Below, piece after piece: positions 15,199 through 37,129 of a stretch of DNA of 64,000 nucleotides. The stretch is taken from assembly GCF_001989615.1 (NCBI RefSeq), contig NZ_CP019067.1:3286001-3350000 (forward strand), given 5' to 3'. Both the position numbers and the translations under genes were made by a program. Source of the DNA: Halorientalis sp. IM1011. GTDB taxonomy: Archaea > Halobacteriota > Halobacteria > Halobacteriales > Haloarculaceae. The notes below the pieces were generated by a model. The model worked only from the letters and a program-made list of their open reading frames with translations. It was not told the DNA's origin and ran no database searches. The first letter of the stretch is position 1. Each line of letters starts with the position of its first letter.

Positions 15199-15234
15199 AC
15201 GATACCGGCTCGATCCGAGGGTCGCGATGCTACA

Positions 15235-15867
15235 TCATTCTGCCTCACACTCACAGCCGCCGCGTTTCACCAGGTCGACGAACTCGTACTGCGTCTCACA
15301 CTCCTCGCAGTGGACGCTTATGTCGATGAACAGCCGAAACTCCCCGAGGGTAATGCGATCGGTCCCGCGGAGTTGATCGAGGCTGCGTTCGGCCACGGAG
15401 CGCGTCCTGGATTTCAGTCGCTGGATCGTATCGACCACGCTCTCCGTTCGGTCGGCCTGACTGTCACTCTCGTACTGTGCGTCGCGATACTCTTTGAGGT
15501 AGGACCGGATCGCCTGGTAGGTGACGAAATCCCGTTCGAGCTGGTCGACGTCGACGCCGTGTTGTTCCAGACGGCGGCGGGCTTCGATACGATTCCCACT
15601 ACTCACGTCGTCGTCGGTCAGGAGGCGATAGATGTTCGCGACTTCGCCGTCGACCGTCGACATCCCGGCGTCCGTGATCGCAGCGTCGAGCAGGCGCTCG
15701 TTGAACCGATCTGCGAGCGCCCTGAGACTCTCCCGTTCGCTCCCATCCGCGGTCCAGAGCGATTCGAGGCGATCGCCGTACGCCCCACCGAGCCCGTACT
15801 CGTCGATGAGGCGGGCGACCTTACTGTCGATCGTGTTCCTCCCCTCCGTATCGTCTTCTGTAACCAT
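15235..15867 (-). CDS. rdfA: RdfA-like protein (rod-determining factor family)
   Basis: 210 residues. The N-terminal half (KVARLIDEYGLGGAYGDRLE ... ESLRALADRFNERLLDAAI ... NIYRLLTDDDVSSGNRIEAR) closely matches what I recall of haloarchaeal RdfA, a factor needed for rod cells in Haloferax volcanii. A central helical segment (VTYQAIRSYLKEYRDAQYE) follows, and the C-terminus has a probable zinc ribbon (CEECETQY ... CECE). It probably acts in the cytoplasm as a regulator. It converges on the SMC-like gene, 36 bases apart, consistent with the Sph/RdfA association. A 26-base palindromic motif (15957-15982) lies upstream of its start. Confidence 0.8.
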   Translation of the reverse strand: MVTEDDTEGRNTIDSKVARLIDEYGLGGAYGDRLESLWTADGSERESLRALADRFNERLLDAAITDAGMSTVDGEVANIYRLLTDDDVSSGNRIEARRRLEQHGVDVDQLERDFVTYQAIRSYLKEYRDAQYESDSQADRTESVVDTIQRLKSRTRSVAERSLDQLRGTDRITLGEFRLFIDISVHCEECETQYEFVDLVKRGGCECEAE

Positions 15868-16164: not shown

Positions 16165-16545
16165 GGTGGTGCGGTCCATCGAACCGGTTGCGTGTCATCT
16201 TGGCGGGCGATCAGTACTACTGGGAGTCGACCGCTGTCCATTGCAGCACGGGAGCAACCGTTCCGAGCCTTCCGGATCTCGAAATCCCGAAGAACCAGAA
16301 CTCGCGGATAGCCACCCTGTGGTCTCGGTCGCACGAGAACGTTTCCGGAATGGTCGGAAATATTCCGTCCGGACTCGTAACTTCGACCGGGTCCAGAATT
16401 CGACCATAGAGACCACTCACGCCACCGTATTCGACGATTCACGACGAAATCGACCCGGTGGAAGTGTCGTTTTCAAAACTACTTCTCTCGGCAATCGTTC
16501 CGACGATGGCGGAACTGTTATGTGTGACACGTCGAATTGTGGGGT

Positions 16546-17313
16546 ATGACAAACGACGGCCGGATCAAGTCGATACAGACCGCCTTCGAGTTGATCGAAG
16601 GGCTCGAACAGCTCGACGGGGCCCGGGCGTCGACGCTGGCCGACCACGTCGACAAACCCGTCAGTACCGTCCACGACTATCTCCAGACGCTGGAACAGAT
16701 CCAGTACGTGACCAAACACGACAACGTGTACCGCCCCGGCACGCGGTTCCTGGAGATCGGCGAAGCCGAGCGGGTGAAGCGGCCGCTCTATCAGGTCGCC
16801 GAACCCGAACTCACGTCGCTCGCCGAGGAGACCGGCGAGTTGGCCACACTCATGGTCGAAGAACACGGGAAGGGCGTCCTGCTCGATATCGAGGAGGGCG
16901 AGGCGGCGATCCAGCTCCACACTTATCCGGGCGTCCGGATGCCGTTGCATACCTCGGCACTGGGGAAGGCGATTCTCGCTCACCTCCCCGAGGAGCGGGT
17001 CGACGAGATCATCGACGAACACGGGCTAACGGCGATGACCAAAAACACGGTGACGGAACGCGATCGACTCGACGACCAACTGGAGGACGCGCGCGAACAG
17101 GGGTTCGTGATCGATCGCGGGGAACGGATCGATGGCGTTCTCTGCCTCGCGGCCCCGATCCTCGGCCGGCAGGACCTGGTACTGGGTGCGATCTGTGTCT
17201 GTAGCCCCGCCAGTCGCATCGACAACGACGAGGACCTCGAACGGATCAGGGACGCCGTCATGCGCACGGCGAACATGATTCAGGTGAATCTGAACTACTC
17301 CGATACGCGGTAA
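16546..17313 (+). CDS. IclR-family transcriptional regulator
   Basis: 255 residues. The N-terminal winged helix (IKSIQTAFELIEGLEQLDGA, ASTLADHVDKPVSTVHDYLQ) is followed by an IclR effector domain (about 75-250) with GELATLMVEEHGKGVLLDIE, LHTSALGKAILAHLP and GVLCLAAPILGRQ. IclR proteins bind aromatic or organic acid metabolites and control adjacent catabolic operons. I used ATG 16546; a TTG nine bases upstream is in frame. It ends 10 bases before the convergent BadH-like gene and is the obvious candidate regulator for the catabolic cluster to its right. The ligand is unknown, perhaps an alicyclic acid or its CoA ester. Confidence 0.9.
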   Translation: MTNDGRIKSIQTAFELIEGLEQLDGARASTLADHVDKPVSTVHDYLQTLEQIQYVTKHDNVYRPGTRFLEIGEAERVKRPLYQVAEPELTSLAEETGELATLMVEEHGKGVLLDIEEGEAAIQLHTYPGVRMPLHTSALGKAILAHLPEERVDEIIDEHGLTAMTKNTVTERDRLDDQLEDAREQGFVIDRGERIDGVLCLAAPILGRQDLVLGAICVCSPASRIDNDEDLERIRDAVMRTANMIQVNLNYSDTR

Positions 17314-17322: not shown

Positions 17323-18090
17323 TTATCCGACCATCGTCAGGCCGCCACTGATGCTGAGCACCTGGCCGGTGATGAAGTCGGCGTCGGAACTGGCGAGGAA
17401 GGCCACGCCGCCCGCGATGTCCTCGGGTTCGGCCATCCGACCGAGCGGGACCTTCTGTTCCATGCCGCCGAGAATCTTCTCGCCGAGATCCGACTCCTTC
17501 ATGTCGTCGGTCAGCGGCGTCTCCGTCGGTCCGGGAGCGATGGCGTTGCAGTTGACGCCGGTTCGCGCGAGTTCCCGTGCGATCGTCTTGGTGAACGAGA
17601 TGATGCCACCTTTCGCGCCGGAGTAGACCGCCTCGCCGGAGCTCCCGACGCGAGCGGCGTCCGAGGCGACGTTGATTATCTTCCCGTCCGTGTCGGTGTC
17701 GACGTAGTGGTTCGCGACCGCGTGGGCGCAGTTGATCTGGCCCTTGAGGTTGATGTCGATGATCCGGTTCCAGACATCGGGGTCCTGATCGACGAACCAC
17801 TCCATCACGTCCCAGCCGGCGTTGTTGACGAGCAGATCGACGCCGCCCTCGGCTTCGACGACCTCGTCGACCATCGACTGAACGTCCTCGTAGTCGGTCA
17901 CGTCGGCGACGGCAGTGAGCGCCTCGCCACCGGCGTCTTCGATCTCCGCGACGGTCTCCGCTGCCCGTTCCTCTTCGAGGTCGTTCACGGCGATCGTCGC
18001 ACCCTCCTCGGCGAGTCGGAGTGCGATGGCGCGACCGATTCCTTGACCGCTGCCAGTAACTATCGCTGTCGTCTCTGCTAGCCCTCGCAT
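17323..18090 (-). CDS. SDR dehydrogenase, BadH-like (2-hydroxycyclohexanecarboxyl-CoA dehydrogenase)
   Basis: 255 residues. The NAD-binding motif is TGSGQGIG (about 11-18), then NNAGWDVMEWF, the catalytic Ser in NVASDAARVGSSGEAVYSG, with the YxxxK (Y-SGAK) following, and the C-terminus ITGQVLSISGGLTM. The stretches NNAGWD, ASDAARVGSSGEAVY and GQVLSxSGGLTM are nearly those I recall from Rhodopseudomonas BadH, which oxidises 2-hydroxycyclohexanecarboxyl-CoA to the 2-keto ester, so I favour that activity over a generic FabG. It follows the acyl-CoA ligase gene on the same strand (54-base gap) and is probably co-transcribed with it. Confidence 0.75.
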   Translation of the reverse strand: MRGLAETTAIVTGSGQGIGRAIALRLAEEGATIAVNDLEEERAAETVAEIEDAGGEALTAVADVTDYEDVQSMVDEVVEAEGGVDLLVNNAGWDVMEWFVDQDPDVWNRIIDINLKGQINCAHAVANHYVDTDTDGKIINVASDAARVGSSGEAVYSGAKGGIISFTKTIARELARTGVNCNAIAPGPTETPLTDDMKESDLGEKILGGMEQKVPLGRMAEPEDIAGGVAFLASSDADFITGQVLSISGGLTMVG

Positions 18091-18144: not shown

Positions 18145-19674
18145 CTAGTCGCGGTACTTGTAGCGCTGTTTCTTCCCGGTAGCGGTCCGCTCGATTTCGT
18201 CCACGAACTCGTACTTTCGGGGCCGCTTGTAGTCGGCGAGACCCTCGTGCGTTTTGCAGTACTCCTCGAGGTCGTCCGCGTCGAGGCCGTCGGCGACGAC
18301 GTACGCGGTGACGACCTGTCCCCACTCTTCGTCTTCGGTGCCGACGACGGTCACCGCTTCGACCTCGTCGTGGGCTTCCAGGGTCTCTTCGACTTCGATG
18401 GGTGAGACCAGTTCCCCGCCCGAGAGGATCATGTCGTCGGCGCGGCCGGTGATCCGGAGATAGCCGTCGTCGTTGACGACGCCGAGGTCGTCGGTGTAGT
18501 ACCAGCCGCTCCGGATCGACTCCTTGGTCTTCTCCTTGCTGCCGAAGTAGTAGTCCAGCGCCGCACCGCTGTTGACGACGATCTCGCCTTCCTCGCCCTG
18601 CGGGACGGTCTCGTCGGGGGCGACCACTCGGGAGCGGTCGAACTCGATGACGTTGACCTCCGTGTCGTTCGTGGGGCGGCCGGCCGAGCCCGCCTGTTCG
18701 GGGAGGTCCTCCGGTCGGAGCATCGTGTCGAGCAACGTCTCGGTGGTCCCGTACCCGTTGTACAGGTTCGGCGTGATCGTCTCCATGATCGCCTCGGCCA
18801 GTTGCTTCGACAGCGGCGAACCCATACAGAGCAGACACTCCAGACTGGAGAGGTCGCGGTCCTCGAGGTCGTCGAGTTCCGTCATCCGCTGGGCGACGGT
18901 CGGCACGCCGACGATGTGGGTCACGCCGTACGTTTCCACCATCTCGACGACCGAGTCCGGTTCCCAGTCCTGCGTGACGAGGATCGTCCCACCGGCCTCG
19001 ACGACCGGATGCACAGTGATGTCGACGCCGCCCGCGTGGAACCACGGTGACAGCTGCAGCGCCACGCTACTCTGTGAGATCCCGATGTTGCGGGCCGATT
19101 CTTGCGCCCGGTTCGAGGCCGTCTCTGCGGTGAATGTGACGCCCTTCGGCATGCCCGTCGTCCCGCTCGTATAGAGGATGTACGTCGGGTCGTCGGGTTC
19201 GATGGGAACTTCCGGCGGCGCGGACCCGTCGTCGTGGTCGGTGAGTGTCTCGAACTCCTCGTCGGAGTCCGAACACCCACCGACGCCGACGGTGTGGGGG
19301 CTCACGTCCGCGTCCGCGAGCGCGGCGCTGAAGTCGTCCTCGACGTCGGCGTCGTAGACTGCTACCTTCGGGGCGACGTCGTCGACGATGTACCGGAAGT
19401 TGTCCCGGGCCAGCATGAAGTTGATCGGGACGGGCACGGCGCCGAGTTTGTAACAGGCGTACAGCGTCAACGGGAACTCGGCCGTGTTGAAAAGCACCAT
19501 CGCGACCCGGTCGCCCTTCCGAATCCCGCGATCCGACAGCGCGTTCGCGACCCGGTTGACCCGTTCGTCGAACTCGGCGTAGGTGAGCGTCTCACCGGTC
19601 TCGACGATTTCGAGCGCCGACTCGTTCGCTCGCCACTCCACATTCCGTTCTAGGTATCTGCGTTGGGTAATCAC
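18145..19674 (-). CDS. Acyl-CoA ligase (AMP-forming), candidate alicyclic acid-CoA ligase
   Basis: 509 residues, ANL superfamily. Motifs in order: ATP loop YILYTSGTTGMPKGVTFT (about 170), GYGTTETLLDT (about 300), and the hinge/C-terminal region YYTDDLGVVNDDGYLRITGR with DDMILSGGELVSPIEVEE. The invariant catalytic Lys is in RTATGKKQRYKYRD at the extreme C-terminus. The enzyme activates a carboxylic acid as its CoA ester. A TATA-like TTTTATA lies on the minus strand near 19718-19725, upstream of ATG 19674. The BadH-like gene downstream and the acyl-CoA dehydrogenases nearby suggest it activates the cluster's substrate; cyclohexanecarboxylate is the leading guess, and other branched or cyclic acids are possible. 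Confidence 0.88.
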   Translation of the reverse strand: MITQRRYLERNVEWRANESALEIVETGETLTYAEFDERVNRVANALSDRGIRKGDRVAMVLFNTAEFPLTLYACYKLGAVPVPINFMLARDNFRYIVDDVAPKVAVYDADVEDDFSAALADADVSPHTVGVGGCSDSDEEFETLTDHDDGSAPPEVPIEPDDPTYILYTSGTTGMPKGVTFTAETASNRAQESARNIGISQSSVALQLSPWFHAGGVDITVHPVVEAGGTILVTQDWEPDSVVEMVETYGVTHIVGVPTVAQRMTELDDLEDRDLSSLECLLCMGSPLSKQLAEAIMETITPNLYNGYGTTETLLDTMLRPEDLPEQAGSAGRPTNDTEVNVIEFDRSRVVAPDETVPQGEEGEIVVNSGAALDYYFGSKEKTKESIRSGWYYTDDLGVVNDDGYLRITGRADDMILSGGELVSPIEVEETLEAHDEVEAVTVVGTEDEEWGQVVTAYVVADGLDADDLEEYCKTHEGLADYKRPRKYEFVDEIERTATGKKQRYKYRD

Positions 19675-19775: not shown

Positions 19776-20552
19776 TCACAGCGCGGCGAGCCCGCCGTCC
19801 ACGTGGAGAACCTCGCCTGTGACCCACTCGTTGCGCGGGTCTGCGAGGAGGGCCACGCTCTCGGCCACCGCTTCCGGGGGGACGGTGTCGCCGTTCGGCA
19901 CGCGTTCTTCGAGGTCCTCCATGGCCGCGGCCGTCTCCTCGGATACCGACGCGTAGTAGTTGTCCTTTCGGAGCGGGCCGGGGTTGACCGCGTTGACGCG
20001 GATCCCCTTCTCGGCCTGTTCGACGGCCAGGTAGCGGACGAGACATTCGAGAGCTGCCTTCGCGCTCGCGAGGAGTCCGTGCAGTGGCATGTAGGTGTGG
20101 CTGTCGTTGCCCGAGACGGCGACGACGGAGCCGTCCCCGTCCATGAGATCGAGCGCGCGCTGGGTCGCGAGGAGGAATCCCGTGACGCCGAGGTCGTAGG
20201 TCAGTGCGATATCTTTCGCCGTCACTTCGTCGAGGGGCTTGAACGCCGTGACGGCGGCGTTGTGGACGAACACGTCGACTGTCCCGAACTCGTCGTCGAC
20301 GCGGTCGAAGAGGTAGTCGATGGCATCCGGATCACCCGCGTCCGCCTGCACGGCGAGGGCTTCGGCCTCGGGGTGGGCTTCCTCGACCGCGACGACGGTC
20401 TCGGCCGCTGCTTCCTCGTTCGACCGGTAGTTGACGACGACGGTGGCACCGCGAGCCCCGAACCGCTCGGCGATGGCTCGGCCGAGTCCGCGACTCGCGC
20501 CCGTGATCACGACGACTGCGTCTTGCCAATCCGGTGACTGGATCGCTGACAT
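19776..20552 (-). CDS. SDR-fold protein, FabL-like, lacking the catalytic Tyr
   Basis: 258 residues. The Rossmann motif is intact (TGASRGLGRAIAERF, about 18-32), as is VVNYRSNEEAAAE. The C-terminal part resembles enoyl-ACP reductase III (FabL): SAKAALECLVRYLAVEQAEK then VNAVNPGPL. At the active site the position four residues before the catalytic Lys is Leu, and the position of the FabL-type Tyr (Y-x6-K) is His (MPLHGLLASAK), so no canonical Tyr is present; the Ser region reads AVSGNDSH. It may be an altered reductase or a non-oxidoreductase. It is divergent from the amidohydrolase-fold gene (104-base gap). Confidence 0.72.
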   Translation of the reverse strand: MSAIQSPDWQDAVVVITGASRGLGRAIAERFGARGATVVVNYRSNEEAAAETVVAVEEAHPEAEALAVQADAGDPDAIDYLFDRVDDEFGTVDVFVHNAAVTAFKPLDEVTAKDIALTYDLGVTGFLLATQRALDLMDGDGSVVAVSGNDSHTYMPLHGLLASAKAALECLVRYLAVEQAEKGIRVNAVNPGPLRKDNYYASVSEETAAAMEDLEERVPNGDTVPPEAVAESVALLADPRNEWVTGEVLHVDGGLAAL

Positions 20553-20656: not shown

Positions 20657-21550
20657 ATGGACGTGCAAGCAATCGATACCATGTGTCGCGGGTTCTACGT
20701 CGAACCCGAACTGGCGAAACCGCTCTTCGAGGTCCGAGAGTTCAGGACGCTCGCCAAATCCACGTTCGGCGGTGTGATGGCGAAACACGACATCCCCGAG
20801 GACGAGATGTGGCGCGTCTTCGGTGTTCTCGGGAACGACTCGCTGGAGGAGACGGTCGACGAGATGGACGAGGTCGGCGTCGAGAAGATCTTCATCGACC
20901 AGCTCGTCCAGTGGTCCCGCGACGCGAAGGAGGCGCTGACGCTGCTCAGCGTCGAGGAACTCGCGGAGATGGTCGACCGGTCGGACGGCCGCGTGGTTCC
21001 CGGCGTCGGCTACAACCCCCACCGGATCCCCGAGAGCCTCGAACGGATCGAGCGGGCCGTCGAGGATCACGACTTCAAGTACGTCTGGTTCCACCCGATG
21101 ACGTTCGGGCTCGAACCGACCGACGAGAAGTGCTATCCGCTGTACGCGAAGGCCAACGAACTCGATATTCCTGTGAGTTTCCAGACCGGCCAGTCGGCCG
21201 AACCGCTGCCCAGCGAACCCGGGCACCCGATGTACGCCGACGAGGTCGCGATGGACTTCCCCGAGTTGACGCTCGTGCTCACCCACACCGGGTGGCCCTG
21301 GACGGAAGAGTGGTGTTCGATGCTCTGGCGACACCCCAACGTCTACGGCAACATCGGCGCGTACTATCCCTCCTTCCTCCCCGACAGTCAGGTGGAGTTC
21401 ATCGACGGCCGCATCCGCGACAAGGTTATGTGGGCGACCAACGGCCTCGGCCTGCAACGGTGCAAGGAGGAGTTCCTCGACCTGGATATCCGTGACGAGA
21501 CCAAGCGGGCCGTCCTCCGCGAGAACGCGCTCGACGTGTTCGACATCTAA
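20657..21550 (+). CDS. Amidohydrolase-2-fold protein with degenerate metal site
   Basis: 297 residues related to amidohydrolase_2 (ACMSD / decarboxylase-hydrolase type). The fold is recognisable: KYVWFHPMTFGLEPTDEKC, FPELTLVLTHTGWPWTEEW, NVYGNIGAYYPSF. The metal ligands are mostly missing: the N-terminal HxH position reads AIDTMCRGF, the next strand has Gln (IPVSFQTGQS) where His is usual, and the final Asp region reads MWATNGLG. Only the LTHTG His stays. It may be metal-independent or bind an acyl-CoA. A TATA-like gatttagg (20624-20631) precedes ATG 20657. It is the only hydrolase-type candidate near the ring-acid cluster for a ring-opening step. Confidence 0.68.
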   Translation: MDVQAIDTMCRGFYVEPELAKPLFEVREFRTLAKSTFGGVMAKHDIPEDEMWRVFGVLGNDSLEETVDEMDEVGVEKIFIDQLVQWSRDAKEALTLLSVEELAEMVDRSDGRVVPGVGYNPHRIPESLERIERAVEDHDFKYVWFHPMTFGLEPTDEKCYPLYAKANELDIPVSFQTGQSAEPLPSEPGHPMYADEVAMDFPELTLVLTHTGWPWTEEWCSMLWRHPNVYGNIGAYYPSFLPDSQVEFIDGRIRDKVMWATNGLGLQRCKEEFLDLDIRDETKRAVLRENALDVFDI

Positions 21551-21626: not shown

Positions 21627-22763
21627 ATGGAGTTCGGATTGACGAATACGCAGCAGATGATCCAGTCTCAGATTCGCGACTACGTGACCGACAACGTCGT
21701 CGGCGAGAACCTGGACTGGGACGACGAGGACTTCCCCCACGACATCTACGACGACCTGATCGACATGGGCGTGCTCGGCCTGCACCTCCCCGAGGAGGCC
21801 GGCGGCGAGGGGTTCGATCCGGTAACGGCAGGACTCGTCTACGAGGAACTGGGTCGTGGCGACGTGGGTCTCACCATGCTCGCGCTCTCGGAGAACCTGG
21901 CGACCAAGATCGTCTGGGAGTACGGCGACGACCACCATCGGGAGGTCTCGAAGCGAGTCTGTGCGGGCGAAGACCACATCTGTTTCGCGCTCACCGAACC
22001 GGATCACGGATCGGACGCCCAGAACATCGAGACGACGGCCGAACCGACCGACGACGGGTTCGTCCTCTCCGGTGAGAAGACGGCGATCACCGGCGCGACG
22101 CTGGCGGATCACGGGCTCATCCTCGCGCGGGAGACGGGTGGCCCCGACGACATCCGGGCGTTCCTCGTCGACCTCGACAGAGAGGGGATCGACATCCAGC
22201 CCTACGCCGGGCTCGGGTGTGAGGTGAGCGGCTGGGGGCAGATCTTCCTCGACGACGTGGAGATCCCGTCCGATGCCCGGGTCAGCGACGAGAACGCGTT
22301 CAAGATGGCGATGCGGACCTTCGACAAGTCCCGCGCGTGGATCGCTCTCTACGCGCTCGGGGCGGCCCAGCAGTCGCTGGACGAGACGGCGACCTACCTC
22401 ACCGACCGCGAGGCGATGGGGAACCCGCTCGCCAGCTATCAGGGACCCCAGTTCGAGCACGCCGAGTGGCAGACTCGCGTCGAGGCCGCCCGTCTCAAGG
22501 CTTACCAGACGCTCTGGAAGGCCGACGCGGGCGAACCGCACACGAAGGACGCGGCGATGACGAAGTGGTACGCGCCGGAGGTCGCCGTCGACACCGTCCG
22601 CGCCTGTCTCGTCCTGCACGGCCACTACGGCTACTCCGACGACTTCGGGATCGGCAAACGCCTGCAGGACGTGCTCGGCCAGCAGATCGCCGACGGCGCG
22701 CCCCACGTCCAGAAGCTCATCGTCGCCCGCGAGACGTTCGGTCGCGAGTACCGCTCGTACTGA
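21627..22763 (+). CDS. Acyl-CoA dehydrogenase, candidate cyclohexanecarboxyl-CoA dehydrogenase
   Basis: 378 residues of ACAD fold: CFALTEPDHGSDAQNIETT (FAD/CoA contact, about 120), SGEKTAITGATLADHG, and a C-terminal QQIADGAPHVQKLIVARE. Most ACADs have a catalytic Glu in YEGT at this end; here the region reads IADGA with an Asp. I recall an Asp base in cyclohexane- and cyclohexenecarboxyl-CoA dehydrogenases of Geobacter and Syntrophus, so this enzyme may dehydrogenate a ring acid. A TATA-like tract (tatttttaatac, about 21594-21606) precedes ATG 21627. Electrons would go to ETF. It lies between the amidohydrolase and the glutaryl-CoA dehydrogenase-like gene. Confidence 0.8.
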   Translation: MEFGLTNTQQMIQSQIRDYVTDNVVGENLDWDDEDFPHDIYDDLIDMGVLGLHLPEEAGGEGFDPVTAGLVYEELGRGDVGLTMLALSENLATKIVWEYGDDHHREVSKRVCAGEDHICFALTEPDHGSDAQNIETTAEPTDDGFVLSGEKTAITGATLADHGLILARETGGPDDIRAFLVDLDREGIDIQPYAGLGCEVSGWGQIFLDDVEIPSDARVSDENAFKMAMRTFDKSRAWIALYALGAAQQSLDETATYLTDREAMGNPLASYQGPQFEHAEWQTRVEAARLKAYQTLWKADAGEPHTKDAAMTKWYAPEVAVDTVRACLVLHGHYGYSDDFGIGKRLQDVLGQQIADGAPHVQKLIVARETFGREYRSY

Positions 22764-22871: not shown

Positions 22872-24038
22872 ATGCTCGACTACTACGGTCTGGAAGCGGA
22901 CCTGTCGGAGGAAGAGCGGATGATCCAGGAGTCGGCCCGGGAGTTCGTCGACGAGAAGGTGCGACCCGATATCGGGGAACACTGGATCGAGGGCACGTTC
23001 CCGAAGGACCTGATCCCCGAGATGGGTGAGATGGGCTTTTACGCACCGAATCTGGAGGGGTACGGCTCGCCGAACGTCAGCGAGACGGCCTACGGCCTCC
23101 TGATGCAGGAACTGGAAGCCTGCGATTCCGGCCTGCGCTCGATGGCCAGCGTCCAGGGCGCGCTCGTCATGTACCCGATCCACGCCTACGGCAGCGAGGA
23201 GCAGAAAGAGGAGTGGCTGCCAAAACTCGGGAGCGGCGAAGCGGTCGGCTGTTTCGGTCTCACAGAGCCGGAACACGGTTCGAACCCGACGGCGATGGAG
23301 ACTCGCGCCGAGGAGGCCGACGGCGGCTACCGACTCAACGGGTCGAAGACGTGGATCACGAACTCCCCCATCGCCGACGTGGCGATCGTCTGGGCCCGCG
23401 ATCGGACAGATCCCGACACACCCGTCCGGGGCTTCCTCGTCGAGACCGACCGCGACGGCGTCTCCACCAACAAGATCGACGAGAAGCTCTCGCTGCGGGC
23501 GTCCATTACGGGCGAGATCGGCCTCAACGACGTGTTCGTCCCCGAGGAGAACATCCTCCCTGGCGTCGAGGGGATGGGCGGTCCACTGGGCTGTCTCACG
23601 CAGGCCCGCTACGGTATCGCGTGGGGCGCGATCGGTGCGGCGCGTGACGGCTTCGAGACCGCACGCCAGTACGCCACCGACCGCGACCAGTTCGGCGGCC
23701 CCATCGCCCGGTTCCAGCTCCAGCAGGACAAGCTGGCGGAGATGGCCACCCAGATCACGCTCGCGCAACTGCTCGCCCACCGACTCGCCGACCTCAAGGA
23801 ACGCGGCGACATGCGTCCCCAGCACGTCTCGATGGCCAAGCGCAACAACGTCCGGATGGCGCGCAATCAGTCCCGGATCGCCCGCGAAATCCTCGGCGGG
23901 AACGGAATTACGGCGGACTACTCCCCGATGCGCCACATGGCGAATCTGGAAACGGTCTACACCTACGAGGGCACTCACGACATCCACACCCTGATCCTCG
24001 GGGAAGATCTCACCGGCTTCGCGGCCTACGAACAATGA
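22872..24038 (+). CDS. Glutaryl-CoA dehydrogenase-like acyl-CoA dehydrogenase
   Basis: 388 residues. The sequence follows glutaryl-CoA dehydrogenase closely along its length: SLVMYP-like LVMYPIHAYGSEEQKEEWLP, GCFGLTEPEHGSNPTAMETR, LNGSKTWITNSPIADVAIVW, SLRASITGEIGLNDVFVPEE, ARYGIAWGAIGAARDGFETA and the catalytic Glu in VYTYEGTHDIHTLILG. The enzyme oxidatively decarboxylates glutaryl-CoA to crotonyl-CoA with ETF as acceptor. A TATA-like attaatg (22840-22848) lies before ATG 22872. Its end overlaps the thiolase start by ATGA. In this cluster it would drain the C5 diacid end of a pimeloyl-CoA-type beta-oxidation. Confidence 0.88.
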   Translation: MLDYYGLEADLSEEERMIQESAREFVDEKVRPDIGEHWIEGTFPKDLIPEMGEMGFYAPNLEGYGSPNVSETAYGLLMQELEACDSGLRSMASVQGALVMYPIHAYGSEEQKEEWLPKLGSGEAVGCFGLTEPEHGSNPTAMETRAEEADGGYRLNGSKTWITNSPIADVAIVWARDRTDPDTPVRGFLVETDRDGVSTNKIDEKLSLRASITGEIGLNDVFVPEENILPGVEGMGGPLGCLTQARYGIAWGAIGAARDGFETARQYATDRDQFGGPIARFQLQQDKLAEMATQITLAQLLAHRLADLKERGDMRPQHVSMAKRNNVRMARNQSRIAREILGGNGITADYSPMRHMANLETVYTYEGTHDIHTLILGEDLTGFAAYEQ

Positions 24039-25174
24039 CAAGCGATACCGATCCCGTGGTCGTCGGTGCGGTGCGGACAGCACAGGGGAAACAGGACGGC
24101 GTGTACGCCGACGTGCGGAGCGAGGACCTCTCGGTCCCGCTCGTGAACGAATTGCTGTCGACTACCGGAGTGTCCAGCGACGACGTCGACGACCTCCAGT
24201 GGGGCTGTGCGAAGCAGGTCAAAGAGCAGGGGAACAACCTCGCCCGTATCATCGCGCTGCTCTCGGACCTCGGCGAGTCCGTGCCCGCGACGACGATCGA
24301 TCGCCTCTGTGGCTCGTCGGCCCAGGCGATCGCGACCGCATCCGACGCGATTCGCGCGGGTCAGCGCGAGTGTCTCATCGCGGGCGGCGTCGAGAACATG
24401 TCACGCGTCGAGCGCGATTTCGGCATCGACTCCTACCCCGGCATCCGCGAACGGTACGACGTGGACGACCTCCGGATGGGGATGACCGCCGAAGCAGTCG
24501 CCGAGCGGTTCGACGTTAGCCGTGAGGTACAGGACGCCTACGCCGCTCGCTCCCAGCAACGGGCCGTCGCGGCGACCGAAGACGGCCGATTCGACGAGGA
24601 GATCGTCCCGATCGAAGCGGGTGACGACACCATCACCGAGGACGAGGGACTCCGACCCGGCACGACGGCCGAGAAACTCGCCGATCTGCCGACCGTGTTC
24701 GAAGAAGATGGCACGGTCACGCCCGGCAACGCCTCCCAGATCTCGGACGGCGCGGCCGCGGTCATGCTCACGTCGCGCCGGTTCGCCGAGGAGCACGACC
24801 TCGACATTCTGGCCGAAGTCGGCGCACACGAGGTCGCCGGCGTCGATCCCGAGATCATGGGGATCGGCCCGGTGCCCGCGGTCCGGGGCCTGATGGAGCG
24901 GGCCGGGACGACCATGGACGACTACGACCTCGTCGAACTGAACGAGGCGTTCGCGAGTCAGACGCTGTACTGCCAGCGGGAACTCGGCATCGACGACGAC
25001 AGCTTCAACGTCAACGGCGGAGCTATCGCCATCGGCCACCCGCTCGGTGCCTCCGGCGCTCGCCTGCCGGTGACGCTCGTCCACGAGATGCACCGCCGAG
25101 ACGTCGACCGCGGGCTCTCGACGATGTGTATCGGCTACGGGCAGGGGATCGCGATCGAGTTCCGGGTCCCCTGA
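24035..25174 (+). CDS. Thiolase (acetyl-CoA acyltransferase)
   Basis: 379 residues, typical thiolase. The acyl-enzyme Cys is in [16 protein letters not shown] (about residue 90), the base His in [20 protein letters not shown], and the second catalytic Cys in [15 protein letters not shown]. It cleaves 3-oxoacyl-CoA with CoA to give acetyl-CoA and a shortened acyl-CoA. It is translationally coupled to the glutaryl-CoA dehydrogenase-like gene (ATGA at 24035). It probably performs the last step of beta-oxidation of the ring-opened product, or acetoacetyl-CoA thiolysis. It is convergent with livF. Confidence 0.9.
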
Positions 25175-25236: not shown

Positions 25237-25983
25237 TCAGTTCACGCCGAGGAGGCTGTTCCGCCGGTCCTCGTTCAGGTCGTCGAGGTGGCCCTCGAAC
25301 TTCACCTCGCCCTTCTCGAGGATGTAGTGGCGGTCGGCGCAGTAGTCGGCGATGTTCACGTTCTGCTCCACCAGCATGATCGTCAGTCCCGTCTCGCTGA
25401 TCTCCTCGACGATCTCGACCACGTCCTCGATGATCTTGGGGGCGAGACCCTCGGTGGGTTCGTCGAGCATCAGCACGTCGGGGCTGGTCATCAGGGCGCG
25501 GGCGATCGCGAGCATCTGCTGTTCGCCACCGCTGAGGGAGTGTCCTTCCTGCTCCCGTCGTTCGTCCAGTCGAGGGAAGAGGTCGTAGATGTCCGCGACC
25601 GTGAACTCCCTGATGGCCTCGTCCCCCGAGCGCTGGGCGGCCACCCGGAGGTTCTCCGCGACCGAGAGCTGGGGGAAGATCTCCCGTTCTTCGGGAACGA
25701 TGGCGATCCCTCGCTGGAGGATCTCGTGTGGCGGAAGACCGACGATCTCCTCGCCTTCGTACTGGATCGACCCGTTCCGGGGCGGCGTCAATCCCATGAT
25801 GCTCCGTAGCGTCGTGGTCTTCCCGACGCCGTTCCGGCCGAGCAGCGAGACGACCTCGCCGCGGTCGACGGCCAGCGACAGGTCGTGCAGGATGTGCGAA
25901 TCGGCGTAGAAGGTGTTGATCGAATCGACGGTCAGAACGCCCGCGGACGATTCGTCCCGCCGTTTCGTCTCGGCTTCAGGCAT
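25237..25983 (-). CDS. livF: LivF-type ABC transporter ATPase
   Basis: 248 residues. Walker A is LLGRNGVGKTT (about 48), the Q-loop lies after GIAIVPEERE, the signature is HSLSGGEQQMLAIARALM and Walker B is VLMLDEPTEGLAPKI, as in LivF of branched-chain amino acid (HAAT) importers. An in-frame ATG 12 bases upstream (25995) is an alternative start; I prefer 25983, which overlaps the livG stop by 8 bases. It pairs with LivG to power the two permeases encoded at 28235-30093. In this cluster the cargo is probably a small carboxylate, possibly cyclic, rather than an amino acid. Confidence 0.9.
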   Translation of the reverse strand: MPEAETKRRDESSAGVLTVDSINTFYADSHILHDLSLAVDRGEVVSLLGRNGVGKTTTLRSIMGLTPPRNGSIQYEGEEIVGLPPHEILQRGIAIVPEEREIFPQLSVAENLRVAAQRSGDEAIREFTVADIYDLFPRLDERREQEGHSLSGGEQQMLAIARALMTSPDVLMLDEPTEGLAPKIIEDVVEIVEEISETGLTIMLVEQNVNIADYCADRHYILEKGEVKFEGHLDDLNEDRRNSLLGVN

Positions 25984-26722
25984 AGATCTCGTCACCCCCG
26001 AAGTACGCCTCGTCGACGACCTCGCTCTCGCGGATGGCCTCGGGCGACCCCTCGTCGATGAACTCCCCGTAGTGCAGGACCGAAATCCGGTCCGAGAGCG
26101 ACATCACGACGTCCATGTCGTGTTCGACCAGGAAGACCGTGTACTCGGATTTCAGTCGGTCCAGCAACTCGATCATCTCACGCGTCTCCTCCTGGGACAT
26201 CCCCGCGGTGGGCTCGTCGAACATGAGCAGCTCGGGGTCGATGGCGAGAGTCAGGCCGATCTCCAGCATCCGCTGCTGGCCGTGTGAGAGGTCCTCGGCG
26301 GATTTGTCGGCGTACTCGGAGAGATCGAGAAACGCCATCACTTCCTCGGCCCGTTCGAGCGGCTCCTTCAGGGACGCTTTCGATCGGACCGGCGAGAGTC
26401 GGCCGGAGATTGCGGCCTGGGCCATCACCCGGATGTTCTCCCGGACGCTGAGACTGGGGAATACGCTCGTGACCTGAAACGAGCGGGCACACCCTTTCCG
26501 GGCGATCTCGTGTGGCGAGTCGCCGGTGATGTCGGCTCCGTCCAGGGTGACTCGTCCCGCTGTCGGTTCGAGGTCTCCCGTGATCATGTTGAACAGCGTC
26601 GTCTTCCCCGCCCCGTTCGGTCCGATCAGCGAGCGGAATTCGCCCGTCTCGATCTCGAACGAGACGTCTTTGACCGCGACGAGCGATCCGAACTCCTTTC
26701 TCAGAGTGTCGACTTCTAACAT
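25976..26722 (-). CDS. livG: LivG-type ABC transporter ATPase
   Basis: 248 residues. Walker A is LIGPNGAGKTT (about 36), the signature is EDLSHGQQRMLEIGLTLAID, Walker B is LLMFDEPTAGMSQEET, and the H-loop follows TVFLVEHDMDVVMSL. The insert after the Q-loop is typical of LivG. The start ATG 26722 is preceded about 28 bases upstream by TTATATAG on the minus strand (26750-26758), so it is probably leaderless. livG and livF overlap and are divergent from the binding-protein gene, giving a divergent importer locus. Confidence 0.9.
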   Translation of the reverse strand: MLEVDTLRKEFGSLVAVKDVSFEIETGEFRSLIGPNGAGKTTLFNMITGDLEPTAGRVTLDGADITGDSPHEIARKGCARSFQVTSVFPSLSVRENIRVMAQAAISGRLSPVRSKASLKEPLERAEEVMAFLDLSEYADKSAEDLSHGQQRMLEIGLTLAIDPELLMFDEPTAGMSQEETREMIELLDRLKSEYTVFLVEHDMDVVMSLSDRISVLHYGEFIDEGSPEAIRESEVVDEAYFGGDEIYA

Positions 26723-26747
26723 ACTGCTACTGGCCCTCAAACGAACC

Positions 26748-26758
26748 CAGCTATATAA
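26748..26758 (-). promoter_or_regulatory. TATA-like box for livG
   Basis: On the minus strand this reads ATTATATAG, about 28 bases before the livG ATG, matching haloarchaeal leaderless promoters. The divergent binding-protein promoter lies about 160 bases to the right. Confidence 0.5.
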
Positions 26759-26909
26759 TTTTTTGTCTGATAGTTCGTCTGCCAGAACGACAATACCCAG
26801 CCCAGACACGGTTTTCAGGGTTTCTGAGGGCGGACGGGACAGTATTCGCTGGCTGGGTGATCCGGGTGGCCGCGTGTATCGGGTTGGACGTGTGGGTACG
26901 ATCGGCGGA

Positions 26910-26920
26910 ACAATTTTATA
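26910..26920 (+). promoter_or_regulatory. TATA-like box for the binding protein
   Basis: CAATTTTATAG lies 27-37 bases before ATG 26947. This spacing favours 26947 over the in-frame ATG at 26923 as the true start of the binding-protein gene. Confidence 0.5.
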
Positions 26921-26946
26921 GCATGGCTCTGTGGGGGGTGTTAGCG

Positions 26947-28227
26947 ATGACAGCAGATAAGCCTATTTCGGGCGGAGCGACAGCACGACGTAACTTCTTG
27001 AAGGCCGCAGTCGCGGGCGCGGCGATCACCGGGACGGCGGGCTGTATCGGTGGAGGCGGTGGCGGCGACACCGTTCGTATCGGGAACTTGACCAGCCGGT
27101 CCGGGCCGTACGCGACGCTCGGGGAGTTCGCCACCACGGGTGCCGAGCTGGCGGTCCAGGAACTGAACGGGAACGACGGTATCGGCGGTCGGGACGTGGA
27201 ACTAGTGACGAAAGACACCGAGACCGACCAGACGACGGCGATTCAGCGGACGCGCGAACTGGTCGAGAGCGAGAACGTGGACATAGTCTCGAACGTCATC
27301 TCCAGTTCGGTCTCGCTGGCCGTCTCCTCGGAGTGTGCGAGCCTCGGCGTGCCCTACCTGTCGACGATCAACGGGACGGAACTTCTGACGGGCGCGGACT
27401 GCAACGAGTACACGTTCCGGACGAACAGCCAGGCACCGCAGGCGGCCTTCGCCTGCATGAAGTATCTGGTCGAGGAGCGTGACGTCGAGTCGATCTACAT
27501 CGTCGGCTCGGACTACGCCTGGGGCCAGGCCGTACAGAACTTCACGGAACGGGCGCTGTCGGATCTCGGCCTCGATCCGAACGAGGCAATCGTCGGGTCC
27601 GAACTGGTCCCGCTCGACACGAGTGACTACTCGACGCAGATCACCAACGCGTCCGACAGCGGGGCCGACGTGTGCTGGAGTATCCTGGCCGGCACACCCG
27701 CCGTCCAGTTCCTCTCCCAGGCCGGTGACTTCGGTCTCGGCGAGGAGATGTTGATCAGCGGTCCGACGATCAACCAGGTCGACCACCTCAGATCCCTCGG
27801 CGACACCGCACAGGGCGTCGTCGGCGGATCGCGCTGGAGTTACTCGGTCGACAAGCCCCGCAGTACCGAGTTCACGCAGGCCTATCTCGACGAACACGGG
27901 GAGTTACCGCACGTGTTCGCCGCGGAAGCGTACATCGGCGTCCACGCGTTCGCGGAGGCGGTCAGAGCGGCGGAGTCGCCCGATCCGGAGTCAGTCATCG
28001 AGACGTGGCCCGGACTGACCTGGGACACCATCGACAACGACGGGACCGTGATGCGGGAGTGTGACCACCAGGCGATGGTGCCGTTCTACATCACGGAGAT
28101 CGTCACCGAAGACGAGTACGACGGGCCGTACGCCGGGGAGTCCGAGGCAGGAGTCTACCCACAGGTCGTCGCCGAGTACGGCGAGGAGATGTTCCGGGAC
28201 TGCGGGGAGACCGGCTGCAACCTCTAG
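26947..28227 (+). CDS. Substrate-binding lipoprotein of branched-chain-type ABC transporter
   Basis: 426 residues. A Tat signal (ARRNFLKAAVAGAAITGTAG) ends at a lipobox Cys (about residue 33). The mature part is a periplasmic-binding-fold type I protein: RIGNLTSRSGPYATLGEFAT near the start, TTAIQRTRELVESENVDIVS in the middle, and a C-terminal VAEYGEEMFRDCGETGCNL. It is anchored outside the cell and delivers ligand to the LivHM-type channel. Its position in the acyl-CoA cluster suggests a carboxylic acid ligand; the ligand is not readable from sequence. I chose ATG 26947 from promoter spacing. Confidence 0.88.
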   Translation: MTADKPISGGATARRNFLKAAVAGAAITGTAGCIGGGGGGDTVRIGNLTSRSGPYATLGEFATTGAELAVQELNGNDGIGGRDVELVTKDTETDQTTAIQRTRELVESENVDIVSNVISSSVSLAVSSECASLGVPYLSTINGTELLTGADCNEYTFRTNSQAPQAAFACMKYLVEERDVESIYIVGSDYAWGQAVQNFTERALSDLGLDPNEAIVGSELVPLDTSDYSTQITNASDSGADVCWSILAGTPAVQFLSQAGDFGLGEEMLISGPTINQVDHLRSLGDTAQGVVGGSRWSYSVDKPRSTEFTQAYLDEHGELPHVFAAEAYIGVHAFAEAVRAAESPDPESVIETWPGLTWDTIDNDGTVMRECDHQAMVPFYITEIVTEDEYDGPYAGESEAGVYPQVVAEYGEEMFRDCGETGCNL

Positions 28228-28234
28228 TGGCACG

Positions 28235-29104
28235 ATGATCGACACGCTACTCACGTACACACTTCACGGGACAGCGTACGGGTTGACGCTGTTGCTCCTG
28301 GCGCTGGGTCTGTCGCTGATCTTCGGCGTGGGAAACGTCGTGAACTTCGCCCACGGAGCCCTCTACATGGCGGGGGCGTACGTCGCGTTCTCGGCCTACA
28401 ACCTCACGGGGAGTTTCGTGGTCGCGTTCGTCGCTGCGGTCGCTCTCATCGGGCTCCTGGGAATCGCGTTCGAGATCGTCCTGCTTCGACCCCTCTACGG
28501 TGATTCGACCGACCAGTTGCTGATGACCTTCGGTGCCATCTTCATCATCGAAGGGCTGATACACAACGTCTACGGGTCGATTCCCAAGCGAGCGTCGCCA
28601 CCGGCCATCGTCGACGGCACGGTCGATCTCGCCGGAATGTCGTACCCGACCTACCGGATCTTCGTGATGGTCGCGGCGGTCTGTCTCACGGCGGCCGTCT
28701 GGATACTGCTCGAACACACCGACTACGGGGTCAGACTCCGGGCCAGTGCCTTCAGCGGCGAAACCGTCTCGGCGCTCGGGACGAACACCGACCACCTCCG
28801 CACCGCGACGTTCGCGTTCGGGTCGATACTCGCCGGCATCGCTGGGGCGCTCGTACTTCCGCTGTACTCCGCCTCGCCCGATATGGGCGGCAGCGTCATC
28901 ATCACAGTCTTCATCATCGTCGTCGTCGGCGGGCTGGGCTCGTTCCGCGGGGCGGTCGTGGGCTCGATGTTGATCGGCTACGTCGAAACATTCGGCCAGC
29001 TCGTGGTTCCGGGGTATCAGCTCCTGTTGAGCTATCTGGCACTGATCCTGGTGTTGCTGCTCGCACCGCGTGGACTGTTCGGACAACACATCGAACTCGA
29101 GTAA
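28235..29104 (+). CDS. livH: LivH-type ABC permease
   Basis: 289 residues with about eight membrane helices. It has the LivH-like N-terminus (TLHGTAYGLTLLLLALGLSL), the motif FGVGNVVNFAHGALYMAGAY and a cytoplasmic loop EAA-like region before GGLGSFRGAVVGSMLIGYVE. It starts 8 bases after the binding-protein stop and is followed 2 bases later by livM, so the three are one transcript. It forms half of the translocation pore in the cytoplasmic membrane. Length and motifs are normal. Confidence 0.9.
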   Translation: MIDTLLTYTLHGTAYGLTLLLLALGLSLIFGVGNVVNFAHGALYMAGAYVAFSAYNLTGSFVVAFVAAVALIGLLGIAFEIVLLRPLYGDSTDQLLMTFGAIFIIEGLIHNVYGSIPKRASPPAIVDGTVDLAGMSYPTYRIFVMVAAVCLTAAVWILLEHTDYGVRLRASAFSGETVSALGTNTDHLRTATFAFGSILAGIAGALVLPLYSASPDMGGSVIITVFIIVVVGGLGSFRGAVVGSMLIGYVETFGQLVVPGYQLLLSYLALILVLLLAPRGLFGQHIELE

Positions 29105-29106
29105 CG

Positions 29107-30093
29107 ATGACAACGCAACTACTACGATTCTACGACCGGGTGAAGCGATGGACGGACGATACTGCGGCGACCGTCTGGGACGATACCCGTCTCCGATTGC
29201 TCGCTATCGTCGGTTCGATCGCGTTGGTCGCGCTCGCGCCCCTCATCTTTACGAGCACGTTGATCCGTCTCTTCATCGAGGTGGCCATCTACGGCATCTT
29301 CGCGCTGTCGCTGAACCTCCTCATCGGGTACACCGGCCTCCTCTCGTTCGGCCACGCGGCCTTCTTCGGAACGCCGGCGTACGTCGCCTTGCTCATGATG
29401 ACGAACGGGATCACCTCGGTGTGGCTGATCCTCCCCGTGGCGATACTGGCCACCCTCGTTCTGGCGCTGGTCATGGGCTACCTCTCGCTCCAGAGCTACG
29501 GGATCTACTTCGCCATGCTGACGCTCGCGTTCTCTCAGGTGGTCTACGTTCTGGCACAGAACCAGCCGTTCGGACTGACCGGCGGCTCCAACGGCCTGAT
29601 CAGCCTCGAATACCCGAACTTCGGCATCCCCGGCGTCGTTCACCTCGAGTTATCCACCGTCGAGTACTTCTACATCGCCGTCGTGTTGCTCGTGGCCGTC
29701 TATTACGTGGTTCGGCGGGTCGTCAACTCCCCGTTCGGGTCCGTGCTGATAGCGATCCGCGAGAACGAGGACCGCGTCGCGTTCGCCGGCTACAACGTGC
29801 TCTTCTACAAGCTCGCGTCGTTCTCGCTCAGCGCCGTGCTGTGTGCGTTCGGCGGCCTGCTCTTTGCCTTCTACTACCGCGCCGTCTCCCCGGAGCACCT
29901 GTACTGGCTCTGGTCCGGGGAAGGCGTCGCGATGGTCATCCTGGGCGGCGCGGGGTCGGTCGTCGGCCCGGTCTTCGGTGCCATCGCGTTCATCGGGATC
30001 AGGGAGGCCGTCTCCCCGTTCCTGACCGACTGGACCATCGTCCTCGGCATCGTCTTCGTCGGGACCATCCTGGTCCGCGCGCTCCGGGAGTGA
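29107..30093 (+). CDS. livM: LivM-type ABC permease
   Basis: 328 residues. A polar 40-residue N-terminus precedes about nine membrane helices. The family signature FALSLNLLIGYTGLLSFGHAAFFG is seen in parts (LSLNLLIGYTGLLSFGHAAF), and the loop IRENEDRVAFAGYNVLFYKL with GGAGSVVGPVFGAIAFIGIR contacts the ATPases. It pairs with LivH. A TATA-like tttattt (30103-30110) just after its stop marks the start of a separate downstream promoter. Confidence 0.9.
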   Translation: MTTQLLRFYDRVKRWTDDTAATVWDDTRLRLLAIVGSIALVALAPLIFTSTLIRLFIEVAIYGIFALSLNLLIGYTGLLSFGHAAFFGTPAYVALLMMTNGITSVWLILPVAILATLVLALVMGYLSLQSYGIYFAMLTLAFSQVVYVLAQNQPFGLTGGSNGLISLEYPNFGIPGVVHLELSTVEYFYIAVVLLVAVYYVVRRVVNSPFGSVLIAIRENEDRVAFAGYNVLFYKLASFSLSAVLCAFGGLLFAFYYRAVSPEHLYWLWSGEGVAMVILGGAGSVVGPVFGAIAFIGIREAVSPFLTDWTIVLGIVFVGTILVRALRE

Positions 30094-30133
30094 CTTCCCC
30101 ACGATTTATTTGGGTCCGTGTTCGGTGGTACCT

Positions 30134-30958
30134 ATGGACACAACAGTTCCGGAGATAGAGCCGAGTGACGTGTCTGGCGTCGCCGACCGACTCCGTCTGG
30201 ACGGTGAGCAGGCACTGGTGACCGGCGCGGGCAACGGAATGGGACGAGTGGCAGCGTTCACGTTCGCCGCTGCGGGCGCGGACATCGCCATCTCGGACCG
30301 GTTGGCGGACGATCTGGCCGAGACCGAGACCAAACTCCGCGAGAGCTTCGACGTCGGGGTGGCGACGATTCCCGCCGACCTGTCCGATCCCGACGACATC
30401 GTCGAACTGATCGACGAGGCGGTGGCCACGCTGGGCGATCTGGACGTGTTGCTGAACGTCGCCGGCATGTCGACCGAGGAAGAGTCCGCGTCGATGTCGG
30501 TGAAGGCGTGGGATCTCGTGCAGGACGTCAACCTCCGCGGGCCGTTCCTCTGTGCGCGCGAGGCGTATCCACACCTGCGGGGCGGCGGCCGAATCGTCAA
30601 CGTCGCATCGATAGCTGGGCTGTACGGGGCAGCCGATATGAGTCACTACGGTGCGGCGAAGGCCGGTGTCCGGAACCTGACCGCCTCGCTGGCCAACGAG
30701 TGGGCGAGCGAGGACGTCCGGGTCAACGCCGTCGCACCGGGGCCGACGCTCACCCCCGGCGCTGCGGGGCTCTTCGCGGACGCCGACCGGCTCACACACG
30801 ACCGGTCCCACGTCGACAGGGACGTGGGCTCGCCGGCGGAGGTCGCCGATACCATGCTGTTCCTGGCCAGTTCGATGGCGAGTTTCGTGACCGGCGAGAC
30901 GATACGTGTCGGTGGCGCTCCGCCCGACCAGACGGACGTTTCGCCGGTACTCGAGTGA
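30134..30958 (+). CDS. SDR-family dehydrogenase (third of the cluster)
   Basis: 274 residues. The Rossmann motif is TGAGNGMGRVAAFTF (about 33), the catalytic Ser is in NVASIAGLYGAADMSHYGAAKAG, with Tyr-x3-Lys intact, and the C-terminus MASFVTGETIRVGGAPP is typical. It is NAD(P)-dependent and would oxidise a 3-hydroxyacyl-CoA or related alcohol. I used ATG 30134, about 27 bases after TATTTGG-like TTTATTT. It follows livM and precedes the MaoC gene, each with its own TATA-like box. Substrate not evident; a beta-oxidation role is likely. Confidence 0.85.
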   Translation: MDTTVPEIEPSDVSGVADRLRLDGEQALVTGAGNGMGRVAAFTFAAAGADIAISDRLADDLAETETKLRESFDVGVATIPADLSDPDDIVELIDEAVATLGDLDVLLNVAGMSTEEESASMSVKAWDLVQDVNLRGPFLCAREAYPHLRGGGRIVNVASIAGLYGAADMSHYGAAKAGVRNLTASLANEWASEDVRVNAVAPGPTLTPGAAGLFADADRLTHDRSHVDRDVGSPAEVADTMLFLASSMASFVTGETIRVGGAPPDQTDVSPVLE

Positions 30959-31044: not shown

Positions 31045-31485
31045 ATGACACGGTTCTACGAGGATCTGGAACTAGGGGAGACGTTCCCCTTTCCCGAGTA
31101 CACCGTCACCGCCGAGGAGATCACGGCGTTCGCTCGTGAGTTCGACCCGCAACCGTTCCATCTCGACGCTGAATCGAGTGCGGACTCGGTCTTCGACGGG
31201 CTCGTCGCCAGCGGCTGGCACACGGCGTCGCTCTCGATGCGGTTTCTCGTCGAGTCGGCATTCGCCGACATCGCCGTCCTGGGCGGACGCGGCGTCGACG
31301 AACTCCGGTGGTACGAGCCGGTGTACGCGGGCGATCGGATCACTGGCGAGGCGGAGATCACGTCGCTATCGCGGGACGACCGCGACCGCGGACACGTGGA
31401 TTTCACCGTCGACCTCCGGAATCAGAACGGAACGACGACTATGTCATACACGACGCTCAGTATGGTCCGCTGTCGCGAGGAGTGA
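31045..31485 (+). CDS. MaoC-like (hot-dog) acyl-CoA dehydratase
   Basis: 146 residues, single hot-dog fold. The hydratase-2 type motif is present: FAREFDPQPFHLDAESS (the D-x5-H pattern used in catalysis) and GLVASGWHTASLSMRFLVES. Such enzymes hydrate enoyl-CoA to 3-hydroxyacyl-CoA. In this cluster it could supply the hydration step otherwise made by a crotonase, either in the linear chain or on the cyclohexenyl ester. ATG 31045 is preceded by its own TATA-like box. It ends the catabolic cluster. Confidence 0.82.
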   Translation: MTRFYEDLELGETFPFPEYTVTAEEITAFAREFDPQPFHLDAESSADSVFDGLVASGWHTASLSMRFLVESAFADIAVLGGRGVDELRWYEPVYAGDRITGEAEITSLSRDDRDRGHVDFTVDLRNQNGTTTMSYTTLSMVRCREE

Positions 31486-33888: not shown

Positions 33889-33897
33889 AAATGAGTG

Positions 33898-34019
33898 GAG
33901 GCGGCGAACCGGGTCTCCCAGAGGCTCGCGCACTCGAGTAGGCCCCGGAACGCAGGCGGGCTTAACTTCCGTGTTCGGGATGGGTACGGGTGGAAACCCC
34001 GCCGCTGTGGCCGCCTTAA
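33898..34019 (-). rRNA. rrf: 5S rRNA
   Basis: About 122 bases. The minus strand starts TTAAGGCGGCCACAGCGGCG and contains CCATCCCGAACACGGAAG and the 3' stem CGGTTCGCCGCC, pairing with the 5' GGCGGCC to close the terminal helix. Last gene of the rRNA operon. Its 5' end abuts a tRNA-like element (34020-34062), and its 3' end is followed by the terminator hairpin. Ends are set by comparison with haloarchaeal 5S from memory, within a base or two. Confidence 0.93.
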
Positions 34020-34062
34020 CGCCGACTCGCGGAATCGAACCGCGACATGTCCAACGTCGGTG
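34020..34062 (-). ncRNA. Pre-5S tRNA-like element (t-element)
   Basis: On the minus strand CACCGAC and GTCGGCG (six of seven pairs) enclose a T-arm-like hairpin CGCGG-TTCGATT-CCGCG. The 3' strand ends exactly where 5S begins. In Haloferax volcanii tRNase Z matures the 5S 5' end at such an element; this is the same arrangement. There is no D or anticodon arm. Confidence 0.7.
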
Positions 34063-34121
34063 TCTCGAACGTCAGTTGACGTTCGAGGCTTGAAAGGCTT
34101 CTCTTTCAGTGGTACGGTGCG

Positions 34122-34172: not shown

Positions 34173-34193
34173 GTCTGTGTGTCCAGTTGCGGT

Positions 34194-37129
<2,936 letters not shown>

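Follow-up and report, generated by a model that had tools for sequence, protein, structure and literature searches.

Sequence comparison and phylogeny place a 297-amino-acid protein of Halorientalis sp. IM1011 in an ancient, widespread and unnamed subfamily of PF04909 that is without the canonical metal site of amidohydrolases. Its gene (20657..21550, + strand, ATG start) lies in a module of acyl-CoA genes in the window, by which we mean the whole stretch of 64,000 nucleotides analysed here. The neighbourhoods of the gene and of its relatives support a role on CoA esters, and our tentative preference is for a metal-independent hydrolase that would open an alicyclic ring.

An amidohydrolase barrel without its metal ligands

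The protein matches the PF04909 (Amidohydro_2) profile with 112.9 bits against a gathering cut-off of 26.4, and none of the curated NCBIfam models gave a match. An AlphaFold model made with 54 sequences (pLDDT 96.6, pTM 0.93) has the amidohydrolase TIM-barrel fold, and Foldseek matched it to members of the family in the order BB4693 (3irs), then dihydroxybenzoate and 5-carboxyvanillate decarboxylases, and ACMSD. BB4693 of Bordetella bronchiseptica, the best PDB match by both sequence and fold (3irs/3k4w; E 6.8e-15; TM 0.75/0.79), is an uncharacterised TIM barrel with 24% identity to the window protein. It likewise keeps the beta-6 His and is without the beta-5 His (MMTGG) and the last Asp (GTAYP), but has Thr and Ala at these two positions, not Gln and Asn. 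ACMSD and the dihydroxybenzoate decarboxylases have PF04909, the fold and the beta-6 His in common with the window protein, yet hold their metal by HxH, His and Asp, and all four of these positions are replaced in the window protein.

The ligand positions were read by alignment against canonical haloarchaeal PF04909 proteins (IDTHAH, VFHGG, IAHP and FGTDYP), to which IDTMCR, SFQTGQ, LTHTG and WATNGL correspond in the window protein, and were placed on strands by reading the listed elements of the AlphaFold model. At the end of beta-1, the canonical HxH site is T8-M9-C10-R11 (20678..20689, on the + strand as are all residues below), with Met9 and Arg11 at the ligand positions. The canonical ligand His at the end of beta-5 is replaced by Gln176 (21182..21184), and the canonical Asp at the end of beta-8 by Asn262 (21440..21442). 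The sole canonical active-site His retained is His210 (21284..21286), at the end of beta-6 within THTGWPW. Also marked in the model are His146 (21092..21094) at the end of beta-4, a possible alternative active-site residue, and Glu182 (21200..21202) in the loop after beta-5. A sequence-only reading of this DNA had held that most metal ligands were lost, with the mid-barrel His changed to Gln, the final Asp replaced in ATNGL and the His of LTHTG kept, and the alignment agrees on every one of these points. That reading had also given TMC as the remnant of HxH; the loss is real, but the register was one residue off, the ligand positions being M9 and R11 of T-M-C-R.

Conservation and selection

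The closest orthologue, 96% identical, is carried on a plasmid of Natrinema sp. DC36; others are found on a plasmid of Natribaculum breve (91% identity) and in another genus of the same family (69%). At 50-65% identity, orthologues occur in Ca. Alkanophaga (Alkanophagales), Peptococcaceae BRH_c4a, a deltaproteobacterium (Desulfobacterota-type) and Dehalococcoidia, and an additional member with 59% identity (L169) comes from the phylum of locus L041. The same M-R-Q-H-N set is common to the orthologues from 50 to 96% identity in several archaeal and bacterial phyla, so the loss of the ligands is not due to chance; shared as it is across archaeal and bacterial groups, it is neither a local quirk nor a sign of decay. 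None of the orthologues examined retained all ligands, and wherever the region was present the same ones were missing, in keeping with the sequence-only reading.

In a maximum-likelihood tree, for which the five ligand columns were left out of the alignment, the rows without HxH and the beta-5 His form a 60-row clade (support 95/99) that has no ligand-bearing row inside it and sits on a weak deep backbone, with several long outgroup rows. BB4693-like proteins (IDFRFR) fall outside this clade; the exceptions, all other such rows being inside, are three ligand-less rows of this 3irs type just outside it, besides L227 and L020, which retain HxH. A nested clade of 28 rows (94/89) has Asn in place of the last Asp, or His in two cases (L171 and L176), and Asn at this position is also found in two more small groups. 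Gln176, His210, Glu182 and Glu218 are invariant in the 28 rows, Asn262 is Asn in 93% of them, and Arg11 is fixed in the window protein's own subclade.

Conservation of this kind might also be expected of a metal enzyme whose site has been relocated, for example to His146, Glu182 and His210, which are conserved at 96%, 100% and 100% in the 28-row clade; binuclear amidohydrolases do have a bridging ligand on beta-4, where His146 lies. We consider such a site improbable, as His146 is Gln in L040, a 55% identical orthologue, and is conserved in only 65% of the whole ligand-less set (Glu182 in 60%), and the four canonical ligand positions are now taken by non-ligating or weak residues.

The missing ligands, and nothing else, could suggest a decaying or mis-called gene. 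However, the gene is intact in all close relatives and its fold is predicted with high confidence. In pairwise comparisons among the window, Natrinema and Natribaculum copies, its dN/dS is 0.043, 0.060 and 0.042, against 0.035-0.149 for other genes of the module (SDR1, ligase, SDR2, ACAD1 and IclR); dN/dS is lowest or near-lowest in each pair, and dN is lowest in every pair. The gene is under purifying selection, and these values rule out decay, to which we give next to no probability.

The acyl-CoA module in the window

The gene of an IclR-family regulator (16537..17313, +), also present in L030 and L031, is followed by that of SDR1 (17323..18090, -), which is BadH-like (TIGR03206, 290.6 bits, below the cut-off of 431.2) and has an intact catalytic YxxxK, by an AMP-forming acyl-CoA ligase (18145..19674, -) and by SDR2 (19776..20552, -), the divergent neighbour of the amidohydrolase gene without the YxxxK tyrosine. 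On the far side of the amidohydrolase gene are two acyl-CoA dehydrogenases, ACAD1 (21627..22763, +), whose best match is cyclohexanecarboxyl-CoA dehydrogenase (TIGR03207, 275 bits, below 575.35), and ACAD2 (22872..24038, +), and a thiolase (24035..25174, +; TIGR01930, 449 bits, over cut-off). Translated ORFs read as a Liv-type ABC importer (25237..30093), with two ATPases on the - strand and a binding protein and two permeases on the + strand, as SDR3 (30110..30958, +) and as a MaoC-type dehydratase (31051..31485, +) that has a homologue in L026 and may be the hydratase of the module. Since the equivalog matches are below cut-off, the thiolase excepted, the names given to these genes express likenesses only.

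As a set, these genes resemble those of ali/bad alicyclic-acid degradation without BadI; the 11 crotonases of this genome all score below the BadI cut-off and lie away from the cluster. Benzoyl-CoA reductase was not found in the genome either, and the haloarchaeal module is therefore not a benzoyl-CoA reductase pathway. The acyl-CoA setting that the gene had been given from its sequence is supported by the best matches of SDR1 to BadH and of ACAD1 to cyclohexanecarboxyl-CoA dehydrogenase, both below cut-off, and it extends to relatives, which lie in benzoyl-CoA-reductase-like and benzylsuccinate-synthase clusters.

A meaningful pairing with the Tyr-less SDR2, proposed in the same reading, did not hold up. 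The YxxxK site of SDR2 reads HGLLASAK, with Leu at K-4 and His at K-7, and the best NCBIfam match is FabL (177 bits, below cut-off). In Natribaculum breve (L031, 6258-6824), where the amidohydrolase is intact, all that is left of the SDR2 gene is a fragment interrupted by frameshifts and stops, and SDR2 was not found as a close neighbour of the bacterial orthologues. Its decay in Natribaculum breve means that SDR2 is not an obligate partner of the amidohydrolase, and we reject a special partnership between the two.

Genes for an archaea-specific SMC-related protein and the rod-determining factor RdfA adjoin modules with a ligand-less amidohydrolase in the window (13249-15867) and on the plasmids of L030 (3646-6334) and L034 (3847-6498), company that suggests a recurrent genomic-island neighbourhood. 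About 2.4 kb past the end of the module, the window also holds complete 16S, 23S and 5S rRNA genes (Rfam; 33896-38964, -).

Gene neighbourhoods of relatives

The neighbours of relatives were grouped by unbiased clustering. Subunits resembling benzoyl-CoA reductase (BCR) stand beside members of the sister clade at nine loci from about seven phyla (three in Acidobacteriota, the others in Fraserbacteria, Armatimonadota, Acetothermia, Myxococcales, Planctomycetota and Tectomicrobia), usually together with hydratase and BadH/Had-like genes. Of 34 clade loci, 9 have such subunits nearby, as opposed to 2 of the other 83 PF04909 loci (p = 2e-4 by Fisher's test, with no correction for phylogeny); by a looser measure, at least three classes of acyl-CoA genes are nearby at 28 of 99 ligand-less loci and at 2 of 18 canonical ones. 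Operons such as those of L048 and L052 consist of the amidohydrolase, a hydratase, reductase subunits and ATPases, spaced by -4 to 37 bases, and have an SDR further on. Dienoyl-CoA hydratase is the best equivalog for the hydratase in L048 and L050 (174-184 bits, cut-off 292.5), and representative scores are 342.7 bits for BCR-C (cut-off 421.15), 251.5 bits for the SDR to BadH and 259.4 bits for the ADH to Had (cut-off 338.65). All BCR-like subunits score below cut-off except bzdQ, which is over cut-off where it adjoins the amidohydrolase of L178.

Elsewhere, SDRs near the amidohydrolase have BadH as their best NCBIfam match in L041, L043, L044 and L176, and in the first two of these the BadH-like gene is directly upstream. 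The L040 gene has bbs-like beta-oxidation genes on one side and, on the other, a glycyl radical enzyme clearly of the benzylsuccinate-synthase type (924 bits to TutD), the amidohydrolases of L170 and L171 adjoin other glycyl radical enzymes, and a BaiCD-like flavoenzyme adjoins those of L172-L175. Near many wider relatives (among them L093, L095, L097, L102, L111, L112, L114 and L033), only a ligase and/or an acyl-CoA dehydrogenase was classed.

Two arrangements were seen besides. The ligand-less amidohydrolase of L171 (1-19000) is surrounded by three genes for glycyl radical enzymes of about 800 amino acids, each paired with an acyl-CoA dehydrogenase, and no NCBIfam equivalog was over cut-off. 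In L182 (9153-14146), a ligand-less PF04909 protein of the 3irs type (IDFRFR, with Thr and Ala at ligand positions) adjoins the sulfopropanediol dehydratase HpsG (NF048011, 1499 bits, over cut-off) and its activase, and comparable gene pairs occur in L179-L184.

A candidate metal-free hydrolase of alicyclic acyl-CoA

We tentatively read the window protein as a metal-independent hydrolase of alicyclic (beta-oxo)acyl-CoA that would carry out ring opening or a closely related hydrolysis. The fold, the lost ligands, the conservation, the purifying selection and the gene neighbourhood are observed; what we infer is that no metal is needed, which class of substrate is used and, most of all, that a ring is opened. 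With neighbours that resemble BadH and cyclohexanecarboxyl-CoA dehydrogenase, and relatives in BCR-like and benzylsuccinate-synthase clusters, 2-ketocyclohexanecarboxyl-CoA is a reasonable candidate substrate. In the proposed order of steps, the ligase would be followed by desaturation by an acyl-CoA dehydrogenase, by the hydratase and by oxidation by the BadH-like dehydrogenase, after which water would open the cyclic 2-oxoacyl-CoA (a beta-oxoacyl-CoA), with the amidohydrolase in the slot of BadI or Oah. His210 may serve as general base or acid, activating or protonating, and Gln176 and Asn262, joined by Arg11 in the near clade, may stabilise the thioester or the carbonyl (ketone) oxygen where the metal would sit.

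BadI (2-ketocyclohexanecarboxyl-CoA hydrolase) and Oah/BamA would fill the same proposed slot, after a BadH/Had-type dehydrogenase, but they have the crotonase fold, unrelated to the Amidohydro_2 barrel of the window protein. Of the nine genomes with BCR operons, one has Oah over cut-off and eight do not, and BadI was over cut-off in none of 15 genomes, MAGs being incomplete. The slot is not always empty: in L176 a MenB/BadI-like crotonase is directly upstream of the amidohydrolase, Oah is over cut-off in the genomes of L064 and L040, and G461 has a BadI-like protein (321 bits). At L199, a PF04909 protein of the canonical metal type stands beside Had and the following ORF reads as Oah-like, so the presence of PF04909 in a ring cluster does not by itself point to the ring hydrolase, and the gene may serve another step.

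These cases bear on a second possibility, to which we give a somewhat lower probability, namely that the protein is a metal-free acyl-CoA enzyme with other chemistry, a hydratase, isomerase, retro-aldol lyase or thioesterase acting on enoyl- or hydroxyacyl-CoA. The many wider relatives with only a CoA ligase and/or an acyl-CoA dehydrogenase point to an acyl- or enoyl-CoA substrate with no beta-oxo step, so that a beta-oxo ring substrate is not required, and PF04909 already includes hydratases, such as 4-oxalomesaconate hydratase (2gwg), itself a weak match to the window protein (E 0.43). The nearest clade, however, is repeatedly accompanied by a BadH-like dehydrogenase and by BCR-type operons without Oah or BadI, which argues for a ring step. 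It is the coexistence with crotonases and Oah, the canonical PF04909 protein beside Had and the minimal ligase/acyl-CoA dehydrogenase contexts that keep ring opening a tentative preference and leave other chemistry its share.

A non-catalytic role within the acyl-CoA module, whether as binding protein or as scaffold, would have a precedent in the CRMPs among dihydropyrimidinase relatives, which have lost the catalytic metals and retained the fold. We think this quite improbable, less likely even than a relocated metal site, given the strict conservation across phyla of three pocket residues (Gln176, His210 and Asn262) and the varying sets of partners between loci, which is a better fit to an enzyme.

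Relation to BamU, ThnN and LigI

ThnN, of the amidohydrolase superfamily, is considered the best remaining candidate for opening of the first ring in anaerobic naphthalene degradation; it is assumed to use metal-activated water, and BamU is its homologue of unknown function (2025 review, PMC12016498). In the Geobacter benzoate cluster, BamU is Gmet_2147, which is induced on benzoate (PMC1924859). Both proteins are of the PF04909 type, like the window protein, and belong to CoA-dependent ring degradation. The L189 protein that takes the place of BamU next to Had, and whose identity as BamU is by synteny only, is remote in the tree, at the end of a very long branch, and has kept all canonical ligands (HCH, YH, PH and GSD); the present clade is therefore not BamU. 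Membership of BamU in the same subfamily was rejected on synteny, the proteins beside Had in L189, L195 and L199 all keeping their ligands, and most of the bam/Had loci L190-L208 had no detectable relative, L195, L199 and L202 excepted.

Canonical-ligand PF04909 proteins (DFHVHL, HTGSS and GSDWP) were observed in L199 (8520-9332), L195 (7913-8734) and L064 (14955-16064), either adjoining 6-hydroxycyclohex-1-ene-1-carbonyl-CoA dehydrogenase or as part of a benzoyl-CoA-reductase-like operon, and are possibly of the BamU/ThnN kind. A literature search for characterised metal-less PF04909 proteins, or for amidohydrolases in BCR or bss clusters, returned only mentions of BamU/ThnN. LigI (2-pyrone-4,6-dicarboxylate lactonase) is a hydrolase of the amidohydrolase superfamily that is reported to be active without a divalent metal; it keeps several His and Asp residues as catalytic groups, and its substrate is a free lactone, not a CoA ester.

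Conclusions

Proteins of the subfamily are annotated as 'amidohydrolase family protein'. Throughout the clade, across phyla, the metal site is replaced, the Gln-His-Asn set is fixed and the neighbourhood is that of CoA esters. In a wider reading, which we hold to be rather unlikely, this metal-free branch would be the unrecognised ring-opening hydrolase of alicyclic-acid pathways and of those of the class-I-benzoyl-CoA-reductase type, among some seven bacterial phyla and two archaeal groups without BadI/Oah; the haloarchaeal version would be aerobic and carried on a mobile module. If ring opening is its true function, the subfamily would fill missing steps in many predicted pathways of aromatic and alicyclic degradation, and would give the amidohydrolase superfamily a second large case of catalysis without a metal. 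Either way, the family name alone is an unsafe basis for inferring metal-dependent hydrolysis.
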